Origin: Allomyces arbusculus
Lineage: Eukaryota; Blastocladiomycota; Blastocladiomycetes; Blastocladiales; Blastocladiaceae
Assembly (NCBI GenBank): GCA_027604705.1
Contig: JADHYV010000112.1
Coordinates: 1-46,663, forward strand
Reading direction: 5' to 3'
DNA length: 46,663 nt
Shown: positions 9,089 through 45,617 of the stretch, piece by piece
Layout: each line of letters starts with the position of its first letter
Numbering within the stretch: position 1 is the first letter of the stretch
The notes under the pieces: model-generated
Told to the model about the DNA's origin: nothing
What the model saw: the letters and a program-made list of their open reading frames with translations, nothing else
The model's database searches: none
Made by a program: the position numbers and the translations under genes

Positions 9089-10446
9089 ATGTCCACCCGC
9101 GCCGCCCTCGCCGCGACGCGCGAGTCGTTTCGCAACCTCGGTCGCGGCCAAGTGCATCTCAAGTACCATCGCCAGCTACCAGTCGCGCTCGTGCAGCTCG
9201 ACAACCCGGCCAAGCACAATGCGCTCTCCGGCCGTATGATGGCTGAACTCGCCGACTGGTGTGCATTGCGTCTCGCCTACGTCGTTTGAATTGAATGGGA
9301 GATTCACATCATGAGGCCGTGAACGTAAATACAGCGTCGACCAGCTCGACCAGCACCAGGACAAGCTCGCGGCCGTGATCTTGACGGGGACCGGATCGTC
9401 GTTCTGCACCGGGTTTGGTGCGTTGTGGGATCCCATAACTCGCCCAGATCGCTATCCATTTGGCTGATCCGACGCGACGCGGCGCGACGTTGCCAGATCT
9501 CGACGTCGCGAGCGAGCACGTCTTTGACCCAGAGTCGGGCCGCGCCATGGCCACGCTCATGCACGACTCGCTCACGCGGCTGCGCGAATTACCGCTCGTT
9601 TCGTTTGCCGCCGTCGAGGGCTATGCGATTGGGTCTGTTTTCAACCCGAATTCTCACGCGTCCTGCCCATGGTGCTCACACCCCGCATTCGTGGTAGCGG
9701 CGGCGCCGAGCTCACGACCACGACCGACTTCCGGATCGTCACGCACTCGACTCAGATCCGGTTCGTGCAGCTGAAAATGGGCGCCGCGCCAGGGTCCGTA
9801 CCTCCTCCCCGTTCCCCCTTCTCCCTCTCCCACCAACCCCTCCCTAACCCATCTCTCTTCCCTGTCGCGTAGATGGGGCGGTGGGTACCGCCTGACCCGT
9901 CTCCTCGGCCCGACCAAATCCCTGCAACTCTTCCTCTCCTGCAAGAAACTCGACGGCGACGCTGCCGTCCGGTGGGGTCTCGCGCAAACCGTCTGTCCGG
10001 CGGGCCACGCACTGCACACGGCGCTTGACACGATCAGCTCGTACCTGGGCGTCCCGCTGCCCCTTGACCACCATCCGACATCGTCGGACCGCGTGCCCGC
10101 CCGCCCGCCCGTCTCCCTCGCGCACGGGTCCCGCACGTCGTCGGGCGCCGCGGGGCTGGACACGGCGACCGCCTCGTCGGTCGAGGACCAGGCCGGGGAT
10201 GCGGCGCGTGGGGTCTGGGCGCAGTTTGCGCCGATGCGCGAGCCCGTCGGGGTGGAGGAGTACGACGGGCACAGTTTGAAGAGCGTGCGCGCGATTAAGG
10301 CCGCGGTTGTGGCCGGGGACCGCGCAGTGCGTGAGCGGGCGTTGGAGGTCGAAAGGGACGCGTTTGTCACGTGTTGGGGCAGCGAGGAGAATTTGCGGGC
10401 TTTGGAGAGGGCCGCCGCCGCCGCGGCGGGCAAGAAGAGGAAGTAG
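9089..10446 (+). CDS. ECHDC1: ECHDC1-like ethylmalonyl/methylmalonyl-CoA decarboxylase (crotonase fold)
   Basis: Five exons: 9089-9258, 9335-9417, 9497-9632, 9698-9793 and 9873-10446, 352 aa. The spliced product reads continuously through the crotonase core: LVQLDNPAKHNALSG, VILTGTGSSFCTGFDLDVAS, ATLMHDSLTRLRELPLVSFAAV, EGYAIGGGAELTTTTDF, and FVQLKMGAAPGWGGGYRL. The GGGAELTT block (about residues 130-137) forms one half of the oxyanion hole, and this order and spacing are typical of ECHDC1, a proofreading decarboxylase that removes ethylmalonyl-CoA made by promiscuous carboxylation. Two donors are unusual (GTCTGT at 9633, GTCCGT at 9794) but are forced by the protein alignment. The C-terminal 140 residues include an apparently disordered Ser/Ala stretch. 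Its stop lies only 36 bases from the stop of CTF8 on the opposite strand, so the 3' UTRs probably overlap. Confidence 0.9.
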
Positions 10447-10482
10447 GGGGAGTAGAATGAAATTAGGGATGGGTTTCTTTAT

Positions 10483-10911
10483 TTAGACGACGTTGTGCGG
10501 GCGCGACTTGAACAGGTACCGGTGCCGCACGACGCCGAGCACGTGCCATTCGCTGGGGAGGGATGCGCCGGTGTCGGGCGTGGAGGACTTTCGGAGCACG
10601 GCAAAGGGTTTTGCGCAAGGGACGAGTTTGCCGTGCAGGCGGTGGTGGCCAATTATGAGGTCCGGTGTCGTATTCGTTGGCGCGTCCTGGGATTCGTTCA
10701 TGGACCTGATCAGCTTTTCTAGCGGGTGGAGAGTGTTGGGAGCGTCGCAAGGAATCATGGTTCGTACGGCAAACCGGATCGTGCCCAGTGTCTCGCCGGC
10801 AAAGCTCGTGTCGGCACCGTCCTCGCCAGATCCTTCGAGCGTGCCTTGCAGCTCGAGCAGAACCAGGTCGCGCGGGTTACGGCTCGATAATGGAATGTAA
10901 ATTTGCGGCAT
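10483..10911 (-). CDS. CTF8: Ctf8, alternative clamp-loader (Ctf18-RFC) subunit
   Basis: Single exon, 142 aa. The N-terminus MPQIYIPL followed by PRDLVLLELQGTLE, then LGTIRF, and the C-terminal GHHRLHGKLVPCAKPFAVLRK and VLGVVRHRYLFKSRP are the hallmarks of the Ctf8 family, usually 120-140 aa. Ctf8 joins Dcc1 and Ctf18 to make a PCNA loader needed for sister-chromatid cohesion. I chose the Met at 10911 because it sits where the family starts; the frame stays open to 11010 but the extra 33 residues are not family-like. It is the downstream partner of a tail-to-tail pair with the ECHDC1-like gene. Confidence 0.9.
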   Translation of the reverse strand: MPQIYIPLSSRNPRDLVLLELQGTLEGSGEDGADTSFAGETLGTIRFAVRTMIPCDAPNTLHPLEKLIRSMNESQDAPTNTTPDLIIGHHRLHGKLVPCAKPFAVLRKSSTPDTGASLPSEWHVLGVVRHRYLFKSRPHNVV

Positions 10912-11281: not shown

Positions 11282-13568
11282 CTACGGTGCGGGCAACCCG
11301 GCCACGTCCTCCGGGTACGTGCACCGCTCGTCCTTACCGACGGCCCAGGGCGTGCAGAACCGGTAGTGGTAGTCGCCGGCCGTCAGCTTTTCGAGCAAGC
11401 GCAGGTTTTCCTTGGCGAGCAAATCGGCCATGCGCTGAGCAACCTTATCCTTGCCAGTCCACGCGTGCGTGATGACCGACCCGACGCACGGCCGGAACTC
11501 CCACCAGCCATTGGCCTCCTCACACGGCGCGTGAATGAACTCCTCACCCTCCTTGAGCGTCGGCAAGATAAAGAACGTGAAGACATGCTGCTCATGCGGC
11601 CACTTCGTGCGCCACAAGACGGCCTCCGGGTGGTCCGAGAACGGGAACATGATCAATTTGCGCAGCGTCGCCTTGGCCAAGTCCGTGTTGCGCACGACCC
11701 AGAACCCGCAGTTCACGGCATTCGCGTTCTCCGGCGGCTGGCCGGGTGGGTCGTCGGCCATCATAAACGAGGCCTTGTCGTGGAACCCCCACCGGTCCAT
11801 CATCCACTGCAAGTCCTTGTCGGGCTGGTTGACAAACGCATCGCCGTCAAACATGACAACAATCTCGAACCGGTGCAGCGCGTCATAGAGCGCCTTGAGC
11901 CGCGACCAGGTCCCGTGGAACCCCGGTTCGGGCGCATCGATCCGGATCCGCTGGTAGTCGTACCCGTGCCGCACCGCCCACCAGGCATTCACCAACGCCG
12001 ACGTCGTCACGTAGTCCTGCTTGCCGACGGGGTCCGAGTTGATCGGCTTGGGCGTGCGGGAATCAGCGACCATCACGAGAACGCGCTCGCCCGTGCGCAG
12101 CCGCGCGGGCTGCTTGAGCCGCCGGTCCCAGTGGAAGGGGGCCGAGACTGGCGCGTCGAGCGCGCGCCACATGTGCGTCATCATGTCGGCCACCGACGCG
12201 TTGTTGATGTTCGAGACAACGGGTTCCCAGGGGGCGGTCGCGCCCGACACCATGCCGAGGCCCGGGACGAGGTGCGGCATGTGCCGCAGCGCAAGTACGA
12301 CAAAGACGGACCCGGCGAGCACGCCGCCGAGGAAGTACATCAGGTACCGGAACGTGGCGTAGAAGGCCCTGCTCGTGTTGCAAAAGGCGTAAGGATAATT
12401 AGTATCTGTTGAACATCACGAGCATGACATCCAAGGACAGCGGCACAACGTACTGGAGACCCTTGGGCACGGCCGAGGCGTCACTGCGGTCATCTGCGGC
12501 CGACGCGTACATGGACAGGCCGACCACAGCGACCATCAGGCCCACAACAAACAAGAGCGACCAGTCGTGCGCGGCCGGGTAGAGTGATGCGCCGAAGCAC
12601 ACAATCAGGACCGTCTTGAGGTGGTCAATGACCGACACGCGCGCAGCGTGCGCCGCCTGCACGGGCGAGTTGCCAACGCTCAGCGAGACTATGGTCACAG
12701 CCGCGAGCAGTGCGAGCTGGCCCCAGGGCGCAACGGCGAGTTGCGCGAGCACGGGTTCGGCCTCGACGGCCATCATGGGCACCTCGACAAACAGGACCAG
12801 GAGCGTGACGATTCCGACGGCGTAAGGGCCTGCCGTGGCCACGATCTGCAGCGGGGACATGTCGTCGAACGACGGCACGTACGAGAGCACCACGTGCGCG
12901 AGCGCCGTGAACATGGCAGCAGCGAGCGCCGCGGCCAGACCCCACGGGTCGTCGCGGAAGGCATGCGCCGTGGCCAGGGCCACACCGACCATGACCGTGA
13001 CGATGGCGAGACCACCACGGCGACCACCGTTCGAGCGGAACAAAACAGCGTGCAGGGCAGCGGTCACGGGCAGACCGAGAGCGAGCGCGACTTGATGCAC
13101 CGCGACCGAGTTGATGGCGAGCGAAACGTTGAGCGCAACCAATGCCAACGCGAGCGTCCCACCGACGAGCAACGAATCGCGCTTGGCGACATGGCGGGCA
13201 CTGAGCGGCTGGTACCGGGAGAGAACGTGCGAGACGAGGTAGGCGGCGAGCAGCGGCACAAACGTCACGACCATGGGTCGCGGGAAGCCGACGAGGATAC
13301 GCTTGGCGACGAGCACGGTGCCGACGCTGGCAACAAGGTTGACGAGCACGAGCCAGGCGGCGGTCGGCGGCAGGGCGTAGGTGCGCTCGGCAGCGAGGTC
13401 GAGCGGCGAGGCGGCATGCATGTCCTTGTGCGCGGCCGTGGTCGAGTCGTCAATGGTGAGCGAAGCAAAGGCGGGCGACGCCGAAGGGCCGGCCAGGGTG
13501 GCGCGAGCCGCGTCGTCGTCGTCGGCCGTGGGCACGGGCGCCCACTTGGTGGCGGGCCGGGCGGCCAT
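11282..13568 (-). CDS. Fusion: nucleotide-sugar transporter (TPT family) + lumenal glycosyltransferase
   Basis: Two exons, 13568-12454 and 12368-11282, 733 aa. Exon 1 encodes about ten membrane helices of the triose-phosphate/nucleotide-sugar transporter family (PF03151 type): LNVSLAINSV near residue 142 and HLKTVLIV near 313 match its conserved helices. Exon 2 begins in the same phase with a hydrophobic helix (MYFLGGVLAGSVFVVLAL) and continues as a GT-A glycosyltransferase, with VVMFDGDAF near residue 545 as the DxD metal/sugar-nucleotide site and NCGFWVVRNTDLAKA downstream. The 85-nt intron has a GTACGT donor, a near-perfect TACTAAT branch site and a CAG acceptor 30 nt after it. Ten cytosol-to-cytosol helices plus one more would put the transferase in the Golgi lumen. 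If the intron were retained, a stop after MFNRY would give the transporter alone. GT34-like or an uncharacterised GT family is possible; the substrate is unknown. Confidence 0.8.
12369..12453 (-). other. Intron joining transporter and glycosyltransferase halves
   Basis: On the minus strand it begins GTACGT and ends GAGCAG, with TACTAAT at 12404-12398. Splicing joins CTC CA to G GCC TTC without breaking either frame. The in-frame TAA that ends the unspliced transporter frame overlaps the branch site itself. Confidence 0.85.
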
Positions 13569-15486: not shown

Positions 15487-16722
15487 ATGGGTCTCTTGTC
15501 GGCCTCCGACGGCAGCTCGGTCAAGGCGCTGTCGCTCGTCACGCTCACCGTGCAAAACTCGCTGCTCGTCCTGCTGCTGCGATACTCGCGTACCGTTGCC
15601 GCTGACGCAGCCGAGGGCCCAGCCTACTCAGTGGCGACGGCCGTGCTGCTTTGCGAAGCTATCAAGTTGGTGTTGTCGATTGCCCTGTTTGCGCGCACCG
15701 GTGCCGACCGGTCCGTGCCATTCGTGCCGCAACTCGTGCGTGAAGTGTTTTCGCCGCGGTGGTACCTGCTCGGCGTCCCGGCAGTGCTCTACACGGTGCA
15801 AAACAACCTGCAGTATGTCGCCGCGACGCTGCTCGACCCGGCGACGTTCCAGGTATGTGCGCATGTCCGGTTCGCGACGGTTGCAGTTGCGGTTTGCGAT
15901 TGTTACTCACGAAAGTCCGCTGCTTATTGTGCTCCTTAGACAACGTACCAACTCAAGATTCTTACGACAGCTCTGTGCTCAGTTTGGCTGCTGCACCGCA
16001 CCCTTGCGGCACACAAGTGGGTTGCCCTGCTGCTCTTGACGACGGGTGTCGCGCTCGTGCAACTGCCGACCGGCAGCTCAGCGTCGTCGTCGGCATCCGC
16101 AAATACGGATTTTGGGTCGCGCGCGATGGGCCTCACGGCCGTGGGGGTGGCCTGCCTGCTCTCGGGTCTCGCCGGCGTCTACTTTGAAAAGCTACTCAAG
16201 CAGAGCAAAACGTCGGTCTGGATCCGCAACGCGCAACTGTCGCTCTTCTCGCTCGTGCCGGCCCTGATTGGTGTCCTGTCGGTCGACGGCGCCCAAGTAC
16301 GCGAGCACGGCTTCTTTGCCGGGTACACGACCTGGACGTGGGCCGCAATTCTGTGCCAGGCCGTTGGTGGCCTGATTGTCGCGCTCGTCGTCAAGTACGC
16401 CGACAACATCCTCAAAGGGTTTGCCACGTCCATTTCCATTTTGCTCTCGGCAGTCGCCTCGGTCTACCTGTTCAACTTCTCACTCGCGCCCACGTTTGTT
16501 GCGGGCGCCGCGCTCGTCATTTACGCGACGTTCCTCTACGGCCAGAGCGACGCGCCCAAGGCGCTCATGGTCTTGCCGGCATTCGCGTCGCCACGGAAAG
16601 TGCGCATTCCGCGGGCCGATAGTGCGATTAGTGATGGGAGCAGTAGCGCCGCTGCGAGCCCATTGTTCCAGAGCCACCACACGGTTGAAGTGCCGATTAT
16701 GGTCGAGACCAAGCGCGCATAA
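15487..16722 (+). CDS. UDP-galactose/UDP-GlcNAc-type nucleotide-sugar transporter (SLC35A family)
   Basis: Two exons, 15487-15852 and 15940-16722, 382 aa, with a GTATGT donor and TTAG acceptor in phase 0. Family signatures are plain: LVTLTVQNSLLVLLLRYSR at the N-terminus, VLLCEAIKLVLS, PAVLYTVQNNLQYVAATLLDP, TTYQLKILTTALCSV across the splice junction, SGLAGVYFEKLLKQS, SVWIRNAQLSLFS, and VVKYADNILKGFATS near the end. These identify the SLC35A (UDP-Gal, UDP-GlcNAc, CMP-Sia) group, Golgi antiporters exchanging nucleotide sugar for UMP; the exact sugar cannot be read from sequence. The C-terminal 50 residues are a Ser-rich cytosolic tail. It is divergent from the transporter-transferase fusion, whose transporter half belongs to a different family, so this is not a local duplication. 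Confidence 0.93.
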
Positions 16723-28476: not shown

Positions 28477-31240
28477 GGCTGTCAGAGGAAGCGAGGAAGA
28501 AGCAAAGCTGCGCTGTGGTGCGCGGCTTCGGAACGGGGGCCCCCGGCAACACGACGAGGACCAGAACGATGGTGACGGTCACAAGCGACCACAACGACGA
28601 GCTGCTGCTCAGGCGGCAGGTGCGCAGGCGCGCGGCAAAAGCGGGAGCAGGCAAGCGACGGTCGGGGCCAGCAGCCGAGGGCGGAGAAGGGCTGCGTGCA
28701 GGGCCGACAGTCGCGGAGTGTGCGTGCCGAGGCCTAAACGTCGTTGTCGCTGCTGTCGTCGTGCTCGTCTCGAGGGGTCGAGGGGTCGAGCGGTCGGGAG
28801 GGTGGTCGGTGGGTCGCGCCGAGGAAGACGCGGCGAGGTGGTGGGGAGAGAGGATGCTGCGAGCAGCAAGCGGCCAGCAGAAGAGCGAGCGAGGAGATGA
28901 CGAGCGAGGCGGGCGCGGGGCCGCGTGCCGTTATAAATCGGCCCAGGAACGGCACGAGCGAGCACAGGTCGGCACGGGCAGGGCCGTGCGCCGTGCGGGG
29001 GGCAGGGGGCCAGGGCGCACCTGCGCGCAATGGAGGGCGCGCGCGCGCACGGTGCCGGTGCCGCTGGGCTCGACGTGCAGGACGGACGGCGGGCGAGGTG
29101 GAAAATGTGCGCCGTCCAGTGGACCGCGCCACGGCGCCCTGCCGGGCCGGCCTGCAGAGTCGGCCGTGGTCGTCGTGGGCAGCTTCGTAACGCAACCATC
29201 GCTGCGCACGAGCGGCGACGCCCGCCTTCAGCGCAGTCACCTGACGCAGAAGCAAGACGCGACGCGTCGCCTCGCTTGACCACCGACCACCGCCGCGGCC
29301 ACCACGGCCACCCCGACCACCATCTCCGCCGACAACGAGCCCGCGCCCGCCGCGATCACCGTGACGCGGCCTGGTTGCCCCCCTCGGCGTCCTCGTCGTC
29401 GCGGACCGGCCTCGAGCTTAACGCTATTGCTTCGTTCGCAGACCCCAGCGCACCGCCCACAAATGAGCTGCGCGCCGTGGCTCGTCCGCGCCCAGGAGCT
29501 GACGCTGCCTGCCCCGCCGCTCGCTTCCCCATGAGGCATGACTTTGCAACCGATCGACACGCGATGCGTCAGGGCCAAACCGTACGCACCCGCTTCCGTG
29601 CGTCCCACCGGCCGGCGTCGTCGTGTGGCGGCCAGCGCCATGAGCCAAAGGCCCGACAGGGATCAGGCTCGCCGCCGTTCCCATCGCAGTCGTGACCCAA
29701 ATGCGTCGTTTTGCTTCGCTTGCCAGGGGCCGAAACAAGGACGAGTTTGGCGCGCGACGCGACCCGGAACCGGTTCTCGCTCGCGCAGACGCGCGCACGG
29801 ACCGCGTTTTCCGCGCACAGCAACACTAGGTGCTCGGCGCGAGGGGTGGAACGGTCGCACACGGCCGCGTCCTTGCTCGTCACTCCGCCCACGCATGACG
29901 CGCCGTGGCGACACGCGCTTCCAGTCGGTTGTTCGATGCGGGGCTGGCTGGTCGAAGCATCGCCTCGGTCGATCGCGCTAGTTCGGCCGAGACCGTGCGC
30001 CGCTTGGTTCCCACGGTGCACGAGCGCGTCCCTACCGCGCCACACTACCTTCCGGCACCACTTGGCCAGCCTGCCCCACCAACTCCGCACCGCCACCACT
30101 TGCTGAAATGAGCGGTCACCTTTTCGCGACGCGACGAAGCAGCGCGCGTGCTGCCGGTGATGCCACGGCCGCATTTCGTGGGCGGCAGCAGGGCAGGAAC
30201 TGAACCGCAAGTGTGGGGCCAAATCATTGCAAGCTTGTCGATGGCCGCCCGCTGACAGGTTGGCACGATCGACGCAAATACATATCTGCTTGATAGTCGC
30301 GCGTGCCGCGCCGACTCTCGTCGCCCTGCCACGTCGTCGCTGTGCGCTGGTCGGGCGCGGGCACCAAGTGCGTGTGCATGGGCTCGCGCTAATCCTGGAG
30401 CGCCTGTGACGTGTCGCGTTGGAGCACCACGATCGCATATACGATACAACGCGTTGGTCGGCTCGTTCTTGTCGTGCAAGCTGAGCTGAAACTCGGTACT
30501 TTGCTGCGGGGGTGGGGCAGGAGGGTGCGATGCGGGGAGAGAGAGACAAAACGTGGGCAGAGCCCCGGCATGGCCTGCACGAGCATGTGCGACGGGTGCT
30601 GATGACGATAGTGTTCTCGATTGTTTGAGCAGACGCTGACTGCAGAGGCACCAGTTGAAGCTCACGACCGCAAGTCAACTCGATCAGCTGCGAATCACGG
30701 TGGTGCGAGACGGTGCGCGAGACGCGACAGACCTCCAATCGCACACCACCACCGCCCAACGCCCACCGCGTCATCTTCTGCCCGCGCCAGCGCCGCCGCT
30801 TTCCATCTAGGCGGCGGCCTGCATCTTCCGAGGGCGGCGGCCTGCACCTTCCGAGACGTCCACGTGGGCCGCGCCATCGCGCGCGACGGCGTGAAGCCGG
30901 ACGCGGCCGCCGCTAGGGGCGCGATCAAGTATTCTTGGCGAGTATGGCATGGGCCCGCCGCCGCTGATTCGATGCCAAGGCGGGTGCCATGGGATCCATC
31001 CCGTTCCCGCCTCTGCGCTCAGTGCCGTCGGCGGGCATCCGGGCGGCCGACGTCAATAGATCCCCCTATTCGCCAAGTCCGTTGTCACCACGTCGCCCGA
31101 CCGATTCGACATAAATTTCCCTCGCTCTTCCGCCACGGCCGCGAACCTGCCCAACCGACCATCGACTGCAAATGGTCCCGCGCCGATCCTTGACCCGCCG
31201 CTATCCACCCGCGCCGCGCTCGTCGTTCTCGACCACGGCC
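28477..31240. other. Longest gene-free region (divergent)
   Basis: 2.76 kb between the divergent Sel1-repeat gene and chitin deacetylase gene. A TATAAAT at about 28932-28938 reads as a TATA-like box on either strand. A minus-strand frame at 29569-30774 is open for 401 codons but is Arg/Ser/Cys-rich with no domain and no clear start; I treat it as chance in GC-rich DNA. No RNA gene recognised. Confidence 0.45.
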
Positions 31241-32790
31241 ATGCTCGTCCGCGCGGTAGTCGCGCTCGCGCTGATCCTCGCCATCGTCCGCGCCGACTAC
31301 GCGCCGCCCGCTGCGTGGTGCGTGACGCCCCAAGGCTCGTGCCCGACCCCTTCGAGCCAGTCCGTGAAATCGTGGCAGGTGGCCGAGGCCGATACGCTTG
31401 GCGATACGCCCGACGCCATGTTCACGACCAGCGCCAACGCATCATTGCCCGCCGGGTACAAGGCGTGCGGTGACGGCGTGTGCGCAGTCCTCGCGGGCGA
31501 GACGTGCGGCACCTGCCCCGCCGACTGCGGCGCCTGCGCGTACAGTACCGTCCCGATCCAGCGGTGCGTGCAGAATAATATGTTTGCGCTCACGTTCGAC
31601 GATGGGCCGTCATATGTATGTTTATGGGGCTGAGTTGTCCAAAGCTCGGGGCGGACGGAGGGGATCCAAGAACTGATCACGATTGATCCAATTCCGCTAG
31701 TCCACGGCGCAGGCGGTCCAAGTGCTCAACAGCAACAACGTCACGGGCACTTTCTTTGTCAACGCCATCCACGCGCTCGAAAAGCCTACGTTTGCGGCCT
31801 CCATGCGCGCGGCCGCGGCGGCCGGCCACATTATCGGCACGCACACCTACAACCACCGATCGGTCGTGAACGGGCACACGGAGGGGCTGCCTGCCACCAA
31901 CCTGTCGATCGGCACGCTGCGCACGCTGATGTACTACAACGACATGGTCGTCTACGAGAATATTGGGAAATTGCCGCGGTTTTTCCGCCCGCCTTACCTC
32001 GAGACGAATGCAGGCATCTTGCCGACGCTCGATACCTGGGGTTACGTGCCCGTCGGCGTCTCGTTTGATACGACCGACTGGGAGCTCTCGACGCGCGCCA
32101 ACTTGACCGATGCGCAGCGCGCGGCCGCGGTCGTGCAGCAAGTGACGAGTATGCTGGCTGCGAGTCCGCCGGGGGTCACGACGCCCGCTGTGGGGGTCTC
32201 GCTGCCCGGTGGCGCGATTCACTTGCAGCACGATATCTTGGGCTACGTATGGTCGATGAGTGCTTTCCTCACTTTCTTTGGCATGCGGCTGACCTTCTCC
32301 ACCCTGTCCCCCAGTCGATGAACGCGCTACAAGCCGTCATTACGGCGATCCGCTCGCGGCGCGACCTGCAGCTCGTCTCGCTCGCCACGTGCCTCGGCAT
32401 GTCGCCGTACCGCAGCGCGCGTACGTATGGTGCACGCCCACGCGGTCGCATCCATGTCTTCCCCCACTCTCTCTGACGCGCCGGCCACGACGTGTAGAGG
32501 AAAGCCCCTTCTTCCACAACCGGTTCCCGGGCAACAAGTACCCGACAGTCCCGAAATCGCGCGCCAAGGGCGTCCTTGGCAACCTCTACCTGTACTCGAC
32601 CGCCGCCAACGTGACGGGGCTGCGCAAACCGCCGTCCGGGTGGGACCAGCCGAAAAAGGGCGAAAAGTCACCGGACGTGGACCATCACGGCGACTTGCTG
32701 AACGACGCGGCGCGGCGCGCGACCGTGGGCCACAGCGCGGTCATGGTCTCGCTCGCACTCGCGGTCGCGTCGATGCTCGCGACATTGTGA
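31241..32790 (+). CDS. Secreted, GPI-type polysaccharide (chitin) deacetylase, CE4
   Basis: Four exons: 31241-31615, 31701-32246, 32315-32420 and 32498-32790, 439 aa, all in phase. Start at 31241 gives a clean signal peptide (MLVRAVVALALILAIVRA); an upstream in-frame Met at 31172 would bury it. A Cys-rich stretch (residues 75-105) precedes the CE4 domain. All five CE4 motifs are present: LTFDDGPS (about 116-123, split by intron 1), HTYNH for the metal site (about 170), RPPYL (about 220), DTTDW, and HLQHD. Histidines and Asp for metal and base are intact, so it should be active on chitin or related N-acetyl polymers, making chitosan at the cell surface. The hydrophobic C-terminus (VMVSLALAVASMLATL) after small residues suggests a GPI anchor. 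Ends 162 bases from the STRIP gene on the opposite strand. Confidence 0.92.
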
Positions 32791-37487: not shown

Positions 37488-39219
37488 CTACACCATCCGT
37501 GGGTACCACCACGGCACGCCCGCCATCTCCCCCATCTCGCCTGGCTCCTCAAAACACGTATCCGTCCGAATTGCGTGCGTCGGCCGCATCTCCCCAAACG
37601 TGCGGTAATCGTGGAACACGTCGCGCCGCCCCAGTCGGCCACAAAGTGCGGTGCGCATCGACGCGGCCCAGGGCGCGCCGCTGATCAAGCCCGTCTCGAC
37701 GTGCGCGCAGAACCAGTTAATCAAGTCGCCGGTCGCTCCGGACTCGCGCATGTTCCGGCTCGTGCTCCCGGAAAAGGTCTTGGTGTCGAGATGTTTCATA
37801 GGGTAGGCGTCGAGGATCGCGAAACGGCAGTACCCGACGGTGCCTAGCAGAGGGGGGGGGGGGGGGAGAATTAGGACCAGGTGAGAAGCCGTTGCAAGGA
37901 CCAGACGAGATAGGAATAGGGTGGAGAGCGTACTGCACACCGGGTAGAGCATGTTGTCGATGCCCCAGGCCGACCGGGCGTCCCATGGAATTAGCGTCCA
38001 TGCGCACGCGTAGGCGCCGCGCGAGATGACTAGTCAGACGAACAAGTGCGATGAATTCACCGCATAGAGTTTGAACATGATGGTGGCCAAGAGCTCGGGC
38101 TAAACGTACTCGGCGCCATCATTTCAATGAAATCTGCGGTCAAGGTTCGGCGCGTTGGTGAGTTTTGCAAACCAGGACGAGAGCACAGAAAAGAACGACC
38201 CGCAACGTACTTGCCCAATGGCCGACCTTGTACAGCGGCACGCGCCGCTCGATCCGGCCTTGCGCGAAATGCTCACCCATAGTCAGCGCCGACTGCGCAA
38301 AGTGCACATTGTACTTTTTCATGGCCTTGGTCGCGTCGACCGGGTCCCACTCGAGATCTATGCTCACGTCGTCGTCGAGCAACCAAATATAATCGTAGGC
38401 GAGCGCGACTTCGGGCGGAACAAATCGCTTGACAAACCAAAACTTGTTCTGCCCGCGCCCTCGCACGGTTGTGACTTTCGGATACCAATCAAACTCGGTC
38501 CAGGTGCTGTTGTCCCACACGCACAGCAAGAATGCGAAATTGTCGAGTCCAAACTGCTGCACGAGCTCGTCAACGCGGCGTTTTGATGATTGGCCCGCAG
38601 GGACGACGACGAGACCGAGCTTGCGCCCGGCACTGGGAGGCTCGATGTTGGCCGACTGGTCGTCCCAAAAGGCCACGTCTGGGTCGATCCGCGACCGGTA
38701 GTGCTGGAACACGTCGTCGCTGGCCACGGCCGCGGCTTTTCGGTCGCGGTCCGGCCGTAGCTCGGCATCGCCGCGGGCTGGCGGGAACCAATCGAGGTGG
38801 GGATCGATAACGGGCGTTTCGGCAGCAACTGGAGCGGCCACGTCAACGACGCTGGCCGCAGCAGCATCTACGTCGGTCGCGGCAAGTAACGTGCTCGTTG
38901 CGCCACCTTGGTTGAGGTCGTGGGTGGTCGTGGCCAAAGTCGATGAATCTGATGGACTCGAGCGCAACACGAGGCCCAGCAAGACGAGCGCCGCGATAGC
39001 AACGGCAGCAAGCACGGTCCGGCGGCGATGTGGGCCTGTTGCAGAGTACAGCAGCTTGCGCAGTGGCCTCGGAGCAATGAGCGGGGGCCGTCCAGGGTGG
39101 GGCGACTTGAGCAGGAGCGACTCGCCGTCGGTCACGGAACTGCCGCGGCTGTGCGGAGCGTCATCGTCGTCGACCAGATCGTAGGCCGGGGTCGTGCGCC
39201 GGCTCAGGAGGTCGGGCAT
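37488..39219 (-). CDS. DUF707-family type II membrane protein, likely glycosyltransferase (copy A)
   Basis: Four exons: 39219-38211, 38133-38110 (24 nt), 38029-37934 and 37843-37488, 494 aa; all junctions are phase 1. The N-terminal 75 residues are cytosolic, then one membrane helix (TVLAAVAIAALVLLGLVL), then a lumenal domain. DUF707 landmarks: GLVVVPAGQSSKRRVDELV, NKFWFVKRFVPPEVALAYDY, IWLLDDDVSID as the DxD-like site, and NFIEMMAP plus ISRGAYACAWTLI, which together rebuild the EMMAPVFSR.AW block only when the 24-nt microexon is included. GYCRFAILDAYPMKHL follows. DUF707 proteins have a GT-A-like look and Golgi topology; their substrates are poorly known. I chose the Met at 39219 over the open frame extending to 39378. 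Intron 3 carries a 15-base C tract. Confidence 0.85.
37852..37866. repeat. Homopolymer run of 15 G (C on the gene strand)
   Basis: Lies in intron 3 of DUF707 copy A, six to nine bases before the CTAG acceptor, so on the transcribed strand it is the polypyrimidine tract. Confidence 0.95.
38110..38133 (-). other. 24-nt microexon of DUF707 copy A
   Basis: Flanked by CGCAG and GTACGT on the minus strand. Encodes NFIEMMAP with help from the neighbouring phase-1 bases, exactly the conserved family motif that would otherwise be missing. Confidence 0.8.
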
Positions 39220-39699
39220 GCTGGCACCGAGCGCACAAGGATGATCGAAGGGGGGGAACGTTGATGGCGTGGGGAGGACGAGAGCGGCCGCGGAGAGAAG
39301 GAAAGCGCCCCGAAAGCGCGCGGGCAGAACAAAAGGGACGGCGTCGACAGGGAGAGTCTGGCGGGCCCTCGTTGGCACGCCGCGCCGCCAGTTGAGATCA
39401 CGTTCAGGGAGGAGAGACAGGGTTCATCGGCGGTGCGCCGCAACCGTACTGCTGCCGGTCAGGCTGAGGGGCCCTTGTTCCACCATCTTGACTTCCGCAG
39501 TCTTCCGCGTGACGTGGAGAGGGCCGCATCTTGATCGCAACCTGATCCCTCGCTTGTCCGATCCCCTATCTCTCCCTCACGCTCGCCCCTCTCTCTCGTC
39601 CTCTCGCGCGGTTCCTCCAAGTCTTTCTCCCAGCAACGCACTCGACCAGCGCCATCCTCTCGCCTGCACTGCCGCCTGCCGCTCCCGCCTGCCGTCACC
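39220..39699. promoter_or_regulatory. Shared divergent promoter of the DUF707 pair
   Basis: 480 bases between the start codons of two head-to-head paralogues, so both promoters must lie here unless leaders contain introns. No TATA box is obvious; the right half is C/T-rich. Confidence 0.5.
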
Positions 39700-41544
39700 A
39701 TGTCCGCAGCGCTGCTCCCGCGCACCAGCGCCGACAGCGGCCTCGACATTTCTGCACCCGTCGACGACGCACCGCAGCACAAGCTTGATACCGGCCGTGC
39801 TCCCGCCCTGCGCCGTGCCTTGCGCACCTGGCCGCTCGTTCTCGCCGCGATCGCCGTGCTCGTCACGACCGCTTGGGTCCTGGGCCCTCGAACGAGGTGG
39901 CAGCGACCTCAGCTCGTTGACCTGGCACCGGCGGCAGCCGCATTTGGCGCCGACTCTCCCATACCATCGCGCAATCCTGGCGTACCTGCCAGTTCGACCA
40001 CTGCACGGCTGCTGATGCACCCGCCGCCCGCATCAAGCGCCTTCCGCTTCTTTGAGCGCGAACCCGGCAACCTGCGCCGAATCGCCAACGGCAATGCTCC
40101 GCGCGACCCGCCGCTCGAGCGTAAAATGGGCTTGCTGGCGATGCGCGTGAGGTCATCGTCGCCAACCAAGTCGGTGCTGAGGATCCTGACTGAGTTTGAC
40201 CGCGCCGGGTTCGATATTACCCTGTTCCACGCCGACGACAATTACGCCAAACTTTGGTGTAAGGTGCCGGGCTACGAGCGGTGGGCGACCGTGCACGCCA
40301 CGGGACAGTCCAAGTGGTGGTTTGCCAAGCGGTTCCTGACGCCCATGGTCGTGGATAATTACGACTTCGTGCTTGTCTGGGACGACGACGCGATCTTGCC
40401 CGAAGGGTGGACGCCCGACCAGTACGTGGCGCTACTCAAGGCGTTTGACTTGCACGTTGCGCACCCAGTTGTCGTGCCTCTGCCAGCCGAGGACGTCGAC
40501 GACGCTGCCGGCCAGACGAAGGCCGGGAATAGCGACGATATGCCAGATACCGACGCGGGCCGTACAGCTCTTCACCGCCGCGGCACCGACGTCGTGATTG
40601 ACGAGCCCGCACCGGCCAACTCGACGACCAACGGCACGACCAGCAGCACCTCAAGCGAGTTTGACCAAGTAATCGGCCAATTCACGACACGTATCGCGAC
40701 CGACTTCCCGATCTTCTCGCGCGCCGCTTGGCCATGCACGTGGCGGCTCATCTCGTACGACGGCACGACCAACGAGGGCACCTGGTACCCGACGTGCGCC
40801 GCACACGGTTTGTGCCGGTTCGCGATCATCGACTCGTTCCCCGTCGGCCGGCGCGGACCCGAACCCGACCCGCGTGCCGGATCCGACGACACGTCGAGCG
40901 ACAGGCGCATGCAGGCACTGTGCGCCGCCGCGGAATTTTCCGATGCACCGCACGCGCCGCTGCAGTACGAAGTCGTCGACACAATCGACATCCCGCGGTT
41001 GCCGCCGCCCCATGTCGCCGACGCTGCGCGCAAGGCCAAGGAGGACCGCGACCGGAAACTCGAGGACCTTGCGCGCGAGTTGCACGTGACAGTGCCCGAG
41101 TTGCTCGACGAGCTCGAGCGCGAGAACGATCCGGCTGTCGCGATCGCGCCCGGGAGTGTTTCCCCACCGCTCGACGTCGTGCCGTGGCACGCATCGGACC
41201 GCGTGCGCGCCATGTGTACCTACTGGTCGTCACGTCCAAAGTCGGCACCGCTGCGTGCGTTCACCAAGGACGACGTCGAGGGGAAACACACGTGCCCGGA
41301 ACCGCACTGGCCCGCGGAAAATTTACCGTGGTGGGCGGATCAACTCATGTCGCCCGCGGATGCGCGGGCCGCGGGACCGCCGCCACAGAGGACCGGGTTC
41401 ATGTTGGCAAGGGATCGCGAGATGGCACGGACTCGTGCGCTCAGGCAGTTGATTGATGATGAGCGTCGTCGCGTGCGCGAGAAGCAGGAGATGGCAGCGT
41501 GGTATGGCGCGCCGTACGAGCTCGGTAATTGGGGCAGTCGGTAA
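39700..41544 (+). CDS. DUF707-family type II membrane protein, likely glycosyltransferase (copy B)
   Basis: Single exon, 614 aa. A cytosolic tail of about 45 residues is followed by one membrane helix (WPLVLAAIAVLVTTAWVLG) and a lumenal domain. Family landmarks: MGLLAMRVRSSSPTKSVLRIL, DITLFHADDNYAKLW, SKWWFAKRFLTPMVVDNYDF, VLVWDDDAI as the DxD-like site, then DFPIFSRAAWPCTWRLISYD and LCRFAIIDSFPV. An insert of about 60 Asp/Thr/Ser-rich residues separates the DxD region from the SRAAW block. After the domain comes a 200-residue extension containing a charged helix (ARKAKEDRDRKLEDLARELH). Compared with copy A it is intronless, longer and clearly diverged, so the duplication is old. It may be a retrocopy or have lost introns; the head-to-head order does not decide this. 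Confidence 0.88.
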   Translation: MSAALLPRTSADSGLDISAPVDDAPQHKLDTGRAPALRRALRTWPLVLAAIAVLVTTAWVLGPRTRWQRPQLVDLAPAAAAFGADSPIPSRNPGVPASSTTARLLMHPPPASSAFRFFEREPGNLRRIANGNAPRDPPLERKMGLLAMRVRSSSPTKSVLRILTEFDRAGFDITLFHADDNYAKLWCKVPGYERWATVHATGQSKWWFAKRFLTPMVVDNYDFVLVWDDDAILPEGWTPDQYVALLKAFDLHVAHPVVVPLPAEDVDDAAGQTKAGNSDDMPDTDAGRTALHRRGTDVVIDEPAPANSTTNGTTSSTSSEFDQVIGQFTTRIATDFPIFSRAAWPCTWRLISYDGTTNEGTWYPTCAAHGLCRFAIIDSFPVGRRGPEPDPRAGSDDTSSDRRMQALCAAAEFSDAPHAPLQYEVVDTIDIPRLPPPHVADAARKAKEDRDRKLEDLARELHVTVPELLDELERENDPAVAIAPGSVSPPLDVVPWHASDRVRAMCTYWSSRPKSAPLRAFTKDDVEGKHTCPEPHWPAENLPWWADQLMSPADARAAGPPPQRTGFMLARDREMARTRALRQLIDDERRRVREKQEMAAWYGAPYELGNWGSR

Positions 41545-42076: not shown

Positions 42077-44839
42077 TCAGTAGTGTGCCGCGGGCTTCTT
42101 GGCGCGGCACTTCTTGACGCGGCACTTCTTGGCCTGCTTGCCCTCGACCTTCTTGGCCTCGCTGGTCTGGACCACCTTGGCGGCCGCCTCCTGCACGACC
42201 CGAACCGTCGCGGCAGGCGCGTTGCCCGCCGTCGGGTACAGGCTGGCGGGCTGCTGCTGCGCGGGCAGCTCGTTGGCCGTGTAGACAGCCGCCGGCTGGT
42301 CCTGCTTGGGCAGCTCGTCGGCCTTGTACCCCGTCGTCGGCTGCTGCATCTTGGGCAGCTCGCCGACCGGTTGCTGCGTCTTGGGCACCTCGTTGGTCGT
42401 GTAACCCGGCTGCGGCTGCGGCTGCTGGTTCTTGGCCTCCTCGCCGGCCTGGGGCTGCTCGACACCGCCGGTCTTAACCGGCACCGCCGTCGGCTGCGGG
42501 CCGAGCGTGACCGTGACCGTGACTGGCGTCCCGTTCGGGCCCGCAACCACCGTGGTAATGCACGGATCCGCATTGCCACCGACCGTCTTGGTCGCCGCCG
42601 GAATCGGGATCGTGACCGTCACCTGGCCGCCGCCGGGCGCCGCGACGATCGTCGTGATGCACGGGTCCTGCTTCGCGGGAACCGTCGAGGCCGGGTTCGC
42701 AGTGGGCACCGCCGTTGCGGGCGCAGTGGCCGTCGCCGTCGGCTGCGGGCCGAGCGTGACGGTGACCGTGACGGGCGAGCCGTTCGGGCCGGCGACGATC
42801 GTCGTGATGCACGGGTCGGCAAGCGTCGTCGTCGTTGGGACGGGGATCGTGACGGTCACGTGGCCGCCGCCAGGCGCGGCAATGATCGTCGTGATGCAGG
42901 GGTCCTGCGCGGCCGTGGTCGAGGTCGCGGGGACCGTGGTCGTCGGGGCAGCGGTCGCAGGGGCCGTGCTGGTGGCAGTGGCGGTCGGAGTCACGACGGG
43001 GCCGTACCCGGTCGAGGTCGAGGTCAGGGTCGACGTGGGCGAGTCGGGCGCCGACACGGTGGCGCTGGACGTGGCAATGACCGTGCTCGACGAACCGGCG
43101 CTGGTGGACGTGGCCTGAGCGGTGGACGACACAGCGCCAGTCGACGAAATGGCGCCGGTCGAGGTGCCCTGTACGGTGGACGACGCAGTGCCGGTCGTGG
43201 CCGACTGGGTGCCCGTCGAAACGGCGCTCGAGGTGCTCGAAACGGCGGTGCTGGTCGTGCGCGACTGAGTCGACGAAACCGCGGTACTGGTGACCGACGC
43301 GGCAGTGGATGAGGTGGACTGCGCGGTGGACGTGGCAATCACCGTCGGGACCGACTGGGTGGCCGAAACGCTGGTTTGAGTCGACTGGGTGCTCACGACG
43401 CTGGTCTGGGTCGACTGAGCGGTGGACGTGGCAACGCTGGTCTGGGTCGACTGAGCGCCGGACGTGATTGCGCTGGTCGTGCCCGTCGTAATTGCGCTCG
43501 TCGAAACGGTCGTGGCTGTGGTCGTAGGCTTGGGCGTCGTGACAGGCGGCAGCGTTGCCGTGCTGCTGCTGCTGCTGGACGTGGCCGTGGCAGTGGTCTG
43601 AGTCGAAATCGCCGTGGTTTGAGTGGAAATCGCCGTCGTGGAAGCCGTAGAGCCGGTCGAGCCACTCGATGTGGCCGTCGTGGTCGTGCCCGTGGCCTTG
43701 GAGGTCGTCTGCGTCGAGCTAGTCGTTTGCGACGTCGCAATCGAGCTGGTCGTGGCCTTGGAGGTAGTCTGCGTCGAGCTGGCCGTGCTTGTCGCCTGGG
43801 ACGTGGTTTGCACGGCGGTGGTACTGGCCTTGGACGTGGTCTGCACGGCCGTCGTACTCGCCGTCGCCGTACTCCCATACGTGCTCGTGCTTGTACCCGT
43901 CTTGGTCGTCGTGGGCTTGGGCGGGAGCGGCACCTCCGGCGCGACTGTCATCCCGGCCTCGATCGCCGCGGCCAGCGCGAGCCGCACATACTCGGCGCGC
44001 TGCGCCTCGCCCGGGTCCTTCATATCGCCAAACACGCACGTGCCAATGGCCACTGACACGTCAATGTTGGGCTGGTAGGCCGCGTCGTTGATGTGCGCGA
44101 TCGAGTAGGCCGCGGCAAGCCGGTCGACGTGATTGCACCGTGTGCCCAAGACAGTCCCAGCACCGGTCGTGAACCACCACGCGGCAACGCGGTACATGAT
44201 GTCATCTTGCAGCATCAATTGCTTGGCGACGGCGTCGGTGCGCTTCAGGTTGCCGCCGAGCGCGGTCGAGATGGCTGGGGTCAGCACGCCGGCAAAAGCG
44301 TACTGCCAGTTGGACGGGATCTGGTTTCGGGGAGGGGGGTCAGTTGGATGCGGTCGGGGCGGCAGCGGACAAGGTGGAGAAGTTTGGACGCACCATGTGC
44401 AGGGCGCCGGCACCACCGTCGGCAGACTGTGGGGTGGAACGAAGGGTGTGGAACGAGCACGCCAGGGGTCAGTTCGGGTTGCTCCAAACACACGACACCA
44501 AGCAAGCAACCATCACAAGATCGTGCGACGCACCTGCTCAAACACCGTCAACCGCGCCGTTTCATGAGCAATGTTGCCCAGGAACATGGCCGTCTGCTGC
44601 GCCGTGCACAGGCCAAACTCGCCGAGCGCCTGCTGAATCTTCGGGAAGTGGTCGACATTGGCCAATTCAAAGACCGACGCGAAGACGGTCGTCGGCACGT
44701 TGCAGAATGGGAGCGGGGCTTGCGTAATGGTCGGCAGCGTCACTTTGACCGACACGGGAACCGCCGTCGCGGCGAGCGCGAGCAAAAGGGCGGCGGCCGC
44801 CGTCGTCAGCAGGACGGGCGACGCCATTGTCTTGGCCAT
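42077..44839 (-). CDS. Secreted GH19-like (chitinase/lysozyme-fold) protein with mucin-like Thr/Ser region
   Basis: Two exons, 44839-44534 and 44320-42077, 849 aa; GTGCGT donor, AACCAG acceptor, phase 0. A signal peptide (LLTTAAAALLLALAATAVPV) precedes a domain of about 170 residues. CTAQQTAMFLGNIAHETARL (HET near residue 91) resembles the first catalytic-Glu region of GH19 chitinases, and DDIMYRVAAWWFTTG resembles a later conserved stretch; the usual YxGRGxxQLT segment is missing, so activity is uncertain. Residues about 240-560 are almost pure Thr, Ser, Ala and Gln, a likely heavily O-glycosylated stalk. Then come four copies of a DPCITT(I/V)(I/V)A unit at about 574, 604, 654 and 689, several ELPKxxQP units, and a Lys/Cys-rich tail (KKCRVKKCRAKKPAAHY). 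It is probably a wall- or surface-associated protein. Confidence 0.78.
42230..42440 (-). repeat. Coding tandem repeat, ELPKxxQP units
   Basis: Four to five degenerate units of about 18-20 codons near the C-terminus of the GH19-like protein: EVPKTQQP, ELPKMQQP, ELPKQDQP, ELPAQQQP, most preceded by a Tyr-containing linker. Confidence 0.8.
42530..42910 (-). repeat. Coding repeats, four DPCITT units in two alternating types
   Basis: Units at about 42905, 42815, 42665 and 42560 alternate between an AAPGGG(H/Q)VTVTIP type and an AGPNG(S/T)PVTVTVT type, pointing to duplication of a two-unit block. Each has one Cys. Confidence 0.8.
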
Positions 44840-45617
44840 GGCAGGTCTATTTGAGTCGAGTGTCTATGGGGATGATCCGCGGCGTGATCGCGCGGTCGTC
44901 GGCGAGTCGTCGGCGGGTCTTGGTCTATGCGGCGGCGGCGGTGGGCGACCCGACGAGAGAGAGAGAACTCGGGTGGGGTGTGGGGGTTGGGCTGGCGCAC
45001 GCAAAGAGGATTCGACCGTGCGGGGCGTGCGTGGCCTTTATATTTTCTCCGGCTGGCCTGGCGTGCGATGACGAAGTGGACCAGGTGGCCGAGACGAACG
45101 ACGCACTTGCGCGCACCCAATGCAGTCGGGCCACGTTCCGCCACGGCGCGCGCGCGCGGCCGGGCTGGGGGGTTGCACAACACTGGCGTCGATGCACGTG
45201 GGATTGGTTGCGTCGCCGGAATACCTGCAGAAAATGACGGAACGGGCGTCGCCGAGCGGAAGGGGTACGTGGAGTACAGCCCGGCCAGGCACTTCGCCAC
45301 GGGCTTCTTGAGGCGTTTCACCCCGACGTGGCACCAGTTTTGACATGAAACTGCCTGCGCCACTCGAATCGGCAGCGACTCACTGCCAGGCGCCAGACCG
45401 AGCCTTCCTGCACTGGCCGCCTGCATGGATCACTAATCACTGATCACTGATCACTGATCAGATCAGAGGAATCAAGTCGTCGCCAACGCACACCTGGCGG
45501 CATCAGTGAACCGAACGACCACCACGGTCACCACCAACAACAGACACACAAAAAAAAAACTGGTGCGGGAATCAAACCAACATGAATCAAACCACAAACC
45601 CCATCCTCCTCACACCC
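44840..45617. other. Intergenic region
   Basis: Promoter side of the GH19-like gene and 3' flank of the GT77-like gene (both minus strand). It contains the ACTGATC repeat at 45431-45464 and a run of ten A near 45550. No gene seen. Confidence 0.5.
45431..45464. repeat. Short tandem repeat of CACTGAT heptamers
   Basis: About four to five copies of a 7-base unit containing the palindrome TGATCA, ending in GATCAGATCAG. Because each unit is palindromic it could form small hairpins. Confidence 0.85.

Follow-up and report, generated by a model that had tools for sequence, protein, structure and literature searches.

The question raised by this locus of Allomyces arbusculus is whether two frames that look like adjacent genes, one for a membrane transporter and one for an enzyme resembling glycosyltransferases, are parts of a single gene, and what a protein combining the two would do. 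We analysed the surrounding 46,663-nt stretch of DNA (the window) computationally, and consider it probable that 11282-13568 on the minus strand is one gene with a single intron, encoding a 733-residue membrane protein of the secretory pathway in which a transporter is followed by a glycosyltransferase-like enzyme (Table 1). A sequence-only reading had proposed two frames joined by an 85-nt intron that carries GTACGT, TACTAAT and CAG signals in matching phase, and our coordinates, splice signals and 733-codon frame agree with it. Annotation errors are said, in the title of PMC10158824, to distort the numbers of domain gains and losses.

Table 1 Features of the proposed gene, with positions in the window and the basis for each assignment
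Feature	Position	Strand	Basis
Exon 1: start codon, transporter half, residues 1-371 and two bases of codon 372	12454-13568	-	Open frame, coding signal, Pfam TPT
Start codon of exon 1, context CCAAGATGG	13568	-	
Ten predicted membrane helices, residues 70-356	12501-13361	-	Hydropathy, 19-residue window
Intron, 85 nt, GC 0.47	12369-12453	-	Splice signals, phase
5' splice site GTACGT	12448-12453	-	Joint best among 163 GTs of the gene
Branch site TACTAAT	12398-12404	-	Best among 2280 seven-mers of the gene
3' splice site CAG	12369-12371	-	Frame after joining
Exon 2: last base of codon 372, short link, membrane helix, glycosyltransferase-like domain, stop	11282-12368	-	Frame, coding signal, hydropathy
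Eleventh predicted membrane helix, residues 381-399	12287-12343	-	Hydropathy; helix also in single-sequence model
Predicted luminal GT-A-like catalytic domain, about residues 467-717	11333-12085	-	Sub-threshold Pfam matches by fragment
DGD of FDGD, residues 546-548, candidate metal/nucleotide-binding DxD	11840-11848	-	Motif

Translation of the spliced sequence gives 733 codons and a stop, with an exact match of phase between exon 1 (1115 nt) and exon 2 (1087 nt); the intron splits codon 372 after its second base (CA/G). The strings LNVSLAINSV and HLKTVL, which had been placed in the transporter half, and the FDGD site are all found in this translation. The stop codon that would end the unspliced transporter frame, TAA at 12401-12399, sits within the TACTAAT branch site. 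Tandem acceptors, GAG and CAG, lie 3 bases apart (GAG ends at 12372) and are both in frame, and the junction could thereby gain one residue.

How easily such a junction arises by chance depends on its quality. In-phase open joins of any quality were frequent, occurring in 746 of 1000 junction shuffles and in 1479 of 2000 random stretches, and in-phase joins scoring at least as high as the candidate were found in 7 of the 1000 shuffles and 6 of the 2000 stretches; an in-phase join of such quality rarely arises by chance. The donor ties for the top score among all GTs in 11282-13568 with a rival at 12882, inside exon 1, and this donor and the top-ranked branch site fall within the same 85 nt. 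As a yardstick for the splice score we used 14 further introns from the window, all of them short (65-90 nt, mean GC 0.56), which span joint scores of 17.2-24.6; at 20.2 the candidate lies in the lower part of that range, with three of the 14 below it, and its CAG acceptor belongs to the rarer type (2 of 14, against 12 with TAG). These introns were chosen by the author from regular-expression hits and a crude gene finder, and the yardstick is partly subjective because 13 of the 14 rest on such picks; family matches on both flanks are available for one, the intron at 15853-15939.

The gene finder itself, which has an adjustable intron cost and the neighbouring transporter's intron among its seeds, gave results that varied with its settings. 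A first version, predicting 606 to 918 introns, was discarded. At a higher intron cost it predicted 88 introns, recovered the neighbouring transporter and called 11282-13568 as one gene; it picked another in-frame donor, at 12414 (a 46-nt intron), and either donor leads to the fusion, with products 13 residues apart. In the same run, 11535-12362 was predicted as a frame of the opposite strand. At a lower intron cost the predicted introns numbered 260, and a single gene took in most of the minus strand. Since these results are unstable, the junction was judged by the splice-score comparison instead.

The coding signal provides a separate view of the junction. A codon score, for which seven other frames in the window served as the training set and which was read in 60-nt steps, was positive for the exon 1 frame in 17 of the 18 steps from 13568 to 12489 (0.0 in the remaining one) and still positive in the step that spans the donor (12488-12429), where the step size is too coarse to separate the intron's initial 25 nt from exon 1. 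All three frames were negative at 12428-12369, where the GC content is 0.43, and from 12368 to 11289 the exon 2 frame was positive in 18 of 18 steps, so that by this score the coding frame switches at the proposed splice. The signal of exon 2 starts at the acceptor, nine codons ahead of the first usable methionine, at 12340. Those nine codons score 0.58, compared with 0.43 +/- 0.26 for exon 2; of 3195 overlapping stop-free 27-mers from presumed noncoding DNA, 0.6% reach 0.58.

These observations bear directly on the reading that the span holds two adjacent genes, or one transcript with two frames, in which the transporter would stop at TAA 12399, the enzyme would start at Met 12340 after a gap of 58 nt, and the splice signals would be accidental. 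Each half does resemble a complete unit, the first a full transporter, the second a type II membrane enzyme beginning with MYFLGGVLAG, and tight spacing occurs elsewhere in the window, where 36 nt separate the ends, at 10446 and 10483, of two convergent frames. For an enzyme encoded on its own, Met 12340 is the earliest possible start, because its frame has no ATG between the upstream stop and this methionine; the later methionines lie past the helix. The nine codons ahead of Met 12340 are coding-like yet would be untranslated. Moreover, its start context is poor (C at -3, T at +4), as against a good one at 13568 (A at -3, G at +4), and the helix would begin immediately, without a cytosolic tail; among three other starts of the window that were compared, that of CK2 beta likewise has C at -3. 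On the minus strand, the tandem gene that follows is Ctf8-like and starts about 260-370 nt past the stop of the fusion, a spacing that does not favour two genes, and splice signals as good as these and in phase are rare by chance. Given the coding signal, the start contexts, the position of the helix and the TAA within the branch site, one gene is clearly likelier than two, and we regard separate genes as improbable. The earlier claim of one polypeptide thus finds good sequence support in the coding signal, the rarity by chance of the splice signals and the coding character of the codons before the methionine: both halves are very likely made as a single chain, and the fusion is probably real as a natural gene.

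A different possibility is that splicing is regulated and yields two products, the fusion from the spliced transcript and, from a transcript that retains the intron, a transporter-only protein ending in YVVPLSLDVMLVMFNRY. The retained intron is indeed open in the transporter frame as far as the branch-site stop and would add just 17 residues. Against this, 12428-12369 has no coding signal in any frame, and intron-retaining transcripts are often degraded; we consider two regulated products quite unlikely.

What kind of transporter does the first half represent? The Pfam TPT profile (PF03151) is matched over positions 9-290 of its 291, at an E-value of 5.6e-4 and 19.8 bits, below the cut-off of 30 bits, and the transporter core alone improves slightly (E 2.8e-4, 20.8 bits). 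Taken separately, the N-terminal half of the transporter matches TPT (E 0.0038) and the C-terminal half matches EamA (E 0.0041) and not TPT. Together with the ten predicted helices, this indicates a complete but divergent transporter of the TPT/DMT type; we term it TPT-like and do not file it as a member of the family, because its score lies under the curated Pfam cut-off. LNVSLAINSV and HLKTVL are strings that we take to be TPT-family signatures, and the lysine-threonine pair in HLKTVL resembles the motif to which the name NST-KT is presumably tied. In plants, the NST-KT clade includes UDP-rhamnose/UDP-galactose and UDP-xylose transporters (PMC7752924). The sequence-only reading called this half a nucleotide-sugar transporter. 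The TPT/DMT type holds, through a full-length TPT match that is nevertheless under the cut-off, and its cargo would be a nucleotide sugar. Searches against PDB sequences gave no match for the transporter half at E-values up to 1. A Foldseek search of its model against the PDB returned 0 matches at E-values up to 0.001, an outcome that is meaningless given the poor query model. Among 14 prokaryote control genomes TPT was matched in five (two above cut-off) and GT34 in none, numbers that are uninformative for a fungal protein.

The window contains a second nucleotide-sugar transporter gene at 15487-16722 (+), with an intron at 15853-15939 and a strong match of its second exon to PF04142 (E 1.5e-78); it lies 1.9 kb from the fusion and is transcribed in the direction leading away from it. 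Elsewhere in the window, a weak-ECH frame (+) and the Ctf8-like frame (-) converge at 10446-10483, their ends 36 nt apart. A gene at 31172-32790 (+) matches polysaccharide deacetylase (E 1.7e-14) and has three short introns according to the crude gene finder. Two DUF707 genes lie head to head, at 37488-39219 (-) and 39535-41541 (+), with E-values of 0.0041 (under cut-off) and 3.4e-27 respectively, the span of the first having been set by the crude gene finder. A long open frame at 42080-44512 (-) contains several tandem repeats, whose units are 15-54 nt long, and has no Pfam match at E-values up to 0.01. Microsatellites are present at 2644-2700 (19 copies of AAC) and 45428-45460 (4.7 copies of GATCACT). 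Other matches in the window are to CK2 beta, Ctf8 and N1221/DUF3402 (N1221 under cut-off), and together with the polysaccharide deacetylase and DUF707 these neighbours appear to fit a fungus.

The divergence of the transporter half also raises the possibility that the fusion is made but that this half serves as a passive Golgi anchor for the enzyme, without feeding it. The TPT score of 19.8 bits, under the cut-off, speaks for such an anchor, as does a separate, well-scoring nucleotide-sugar transporter gene (15487-16722) 1.9 kb away. On the other hand, the TPT match covers the whole profile, ten helices are predicted, and the lysine-threonine pair of HLKTVL recalls the plant NST-KT clade with its UDP-sugar transporters. 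A purely passive anchor seems unlikely to us, though conceivable.

Assignment of the enzyme half is less straightforward. The whole of exon 2 matched no glycosyltransferase family in Pfam at E-values up to 1. We also scanned it as eight overlapping fragments (three plus five), with E-values uncorrected for the number of fragments. Nucleotid_trans (PF03407) was matched by three of the eight (E 0.079-0.17, 12.3-13.4 bits vs. a cut-off of 22), Glyco_transf_34 (GT34, PF05637) by one (E 0.084, 13 bits vs. a cut-off of 23) and Glyco_tranf_2_3 (PF13641) by one (E 0.11), while three of the eight gave no Pfam match. In all five matching fragments a chance-like match of 15 residues to DUF5894 scores better (E 0.033-0.11). 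Eight of eight shuffles of fragment 11603-12085 gave no Pfam match of any kind. The three weakly matched glycosyltransferase families have the GT-A fold in common, and a DxD site of the FDGD type is the metal/nucleotide site in GT-A enzymes; in exon 2 a candidate site of this kind follows a hydrophobic strand (EIVVMFDGDAF), and the protein as a whole has further DxD patterns near residue 16 and at 555. The FDGD site that had been reported for this half is present, and the membrane helix reported with it is predicted here too (Table 1). An enzyme of GT-A-like glycosyltransferase type is likely, because three families are matched at border score, a DxD follows a strand and a helix precedes the domain. 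The enzyme half is left without a family, because each match is far under its cut-off. The earlier designation as a glycosyltransferase is accordingly plausible, being backed by weak matches to three families in five of the eight fragments and by the DxD, but these matches are under their cut-offs and outscored by DUF5894. AlphaFold single-sequence models, with mean pLDDT values of 36.3 (enzyme model) and 48.9, are too poor for use; within the otherwise unusable enzyme model, the first 30 residues of exon 2 form a helix with block pLDDT of 83-92. The C-terminal stretch of the enzyme presumably resembles an uncharacterised fungal family, a likeness that we do not count as evidence.

For the two halves to cooperate, the enzyme would have to face the compartment into which the transporter delivers. 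Hydropathy gives ten helices plus one, and lysines and arginines number 14 in the even loops vs. 4 in the odd loops, a bias that points to a cytosolic N terminus; with ten helices, both ends of the transporter half would be cytosolic. The part of the protein then predicted to be luminal contains five of the six cysteines, one of the two sequons (N428) and the FDGD site. These features make a luminal enzyme domain likely. The helix count is no proof of topology, because the same method gave just seven helices for the neighbouring, well-scoring transporter used as a control. The luminal transferase of the earlier reading is thus favoured by the 10 + 1 helices and the charge bias, and weakened by the control.

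We propose the following working model. A ten-helix TPT/DMT-type transporter, at about residues 70-356 and with its N terminus in the cytosol, would be connected by a 24-residue cytosolic link to the eleventh helix, and this in turn to a GT-A-like domain with a DxD site in the lumen. Nucleotide-sugar transporters import donor into the Golgi lumen and return nucleoside monophosphate (PMC6508934). The transporter half would likewise let a nucleotide sugar in (probably GDP-mannose or a UDP-sugar) and nucleoside monophosphate out, and the attached enzyme would take the sugar next to the exit and transfer it to a glycan or glycoprotein. Fusion would give equal numbers of the two activities, shared sorting to one Golgi compartment and a high local concentration of donor, and a sealed tunnel would not be required. 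The sequence-only reading had suggested substrate channelling; to us, the chance that the transporter half locally feeds the enzyme attached to it is somewhat short of even. Expression, location, substrate, activity and coupling of the fusion are all matters that we infer from its sequence.

Would such a protein be new? The sequence-only reading knew of no described family with this architecture, and in the open-licence literature no transporter-glycosyltransferase fusion is apparent from titles or the beginnings of abstracts, among the matches listed. Database searches with the two halves were made mostly in collections where a fungal relative is hardly expected: pattern scans gave 0 and 2 pattern matches in viral contigs and 6 and 29 in prokaryote genomes, without a relative in either. 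Using tblastn, the enzyme half matched one plasmid record (E 2, under a GMC oxidoreductase gene) and ten phage records (E about 7-10), all taken as chance. Neither half had a match in NCBIfam or PHROGs, and PDB sequence searches otherwise produced E-values of about 0.85 or worse only, likewise taken as chance, with nothing relevant among them. A public proteome may already contain the fusion without anyone having commented on it. It is possible, but somewhat doubtful, that this is the first described self-feeding glycosyltransferase, in which the enzyme's own N-terminal domain would import its donor at a 1:1 ratio and bypass the common luminal pool. If true, a natural covalent fusion would make coupling testable by cutting the link or mutating one half and watching glycan output, a transporter assay would help to reveal the donor of an otherwise unassignable enzyme, and the protein could find use in glycan engineering.

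Compared with known systems, the protein shares with SLC35/TPT transporters (PF03151, DMT superfamily) the ten predicted helices, a full-length TPT alignment and an EamA-like second half, but it scores under the Pfam cut-off and carries an eleventh helix and a C-terminal part of 334 residues that is predicted to be luminal. With the Golgi enzymes of the GT34 (Gma12/Mnn10, PF05637) and Nucleotid_trans (PF03407) families it has in common one signal-anchor-like helix, the FDGD site and weak partial profile matches; these matches are far under cut-off, however, and its membrane anchor is joined to a transporter. In prokaryotes, GT2 enzymes occur fused to GtrA-like membrane domains, and cellulose and hyaluronan synthases are processive enzymes; in these systems, what passes through the membrane is a lipid-linked sugar or the polymer being extended. 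They too combine a glycosyltransferase and membrane passage in one chain, whereas the fusion described here would import the nucleotide-sugar donor to a luminal enzyme. A further parallel is found in mammalian cells. There, SLC35A2 associates with UGT8, B4GalT1 and B4GalT4, and SLC35A2/A3 with Mgats, all as separate proteins (PMC9368800, PMC6453868), and functional coupling of associated transporters and glycosyltransferases has been proposed (PMC9368800, section 4.7; PMC6453868). According to section 4.7 of PMC9368800, the role of such contacts is not fully understood. In those complexes, as in the fusion, transporter and enzyme sit together in the membrane and coupling has been suggested; unlike them, the fusion is one chain with a fixed 1:1 ratio. 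By analogy, the Allomyces arbusculus gene would be a covalent version of this known transporter-enzyme association.
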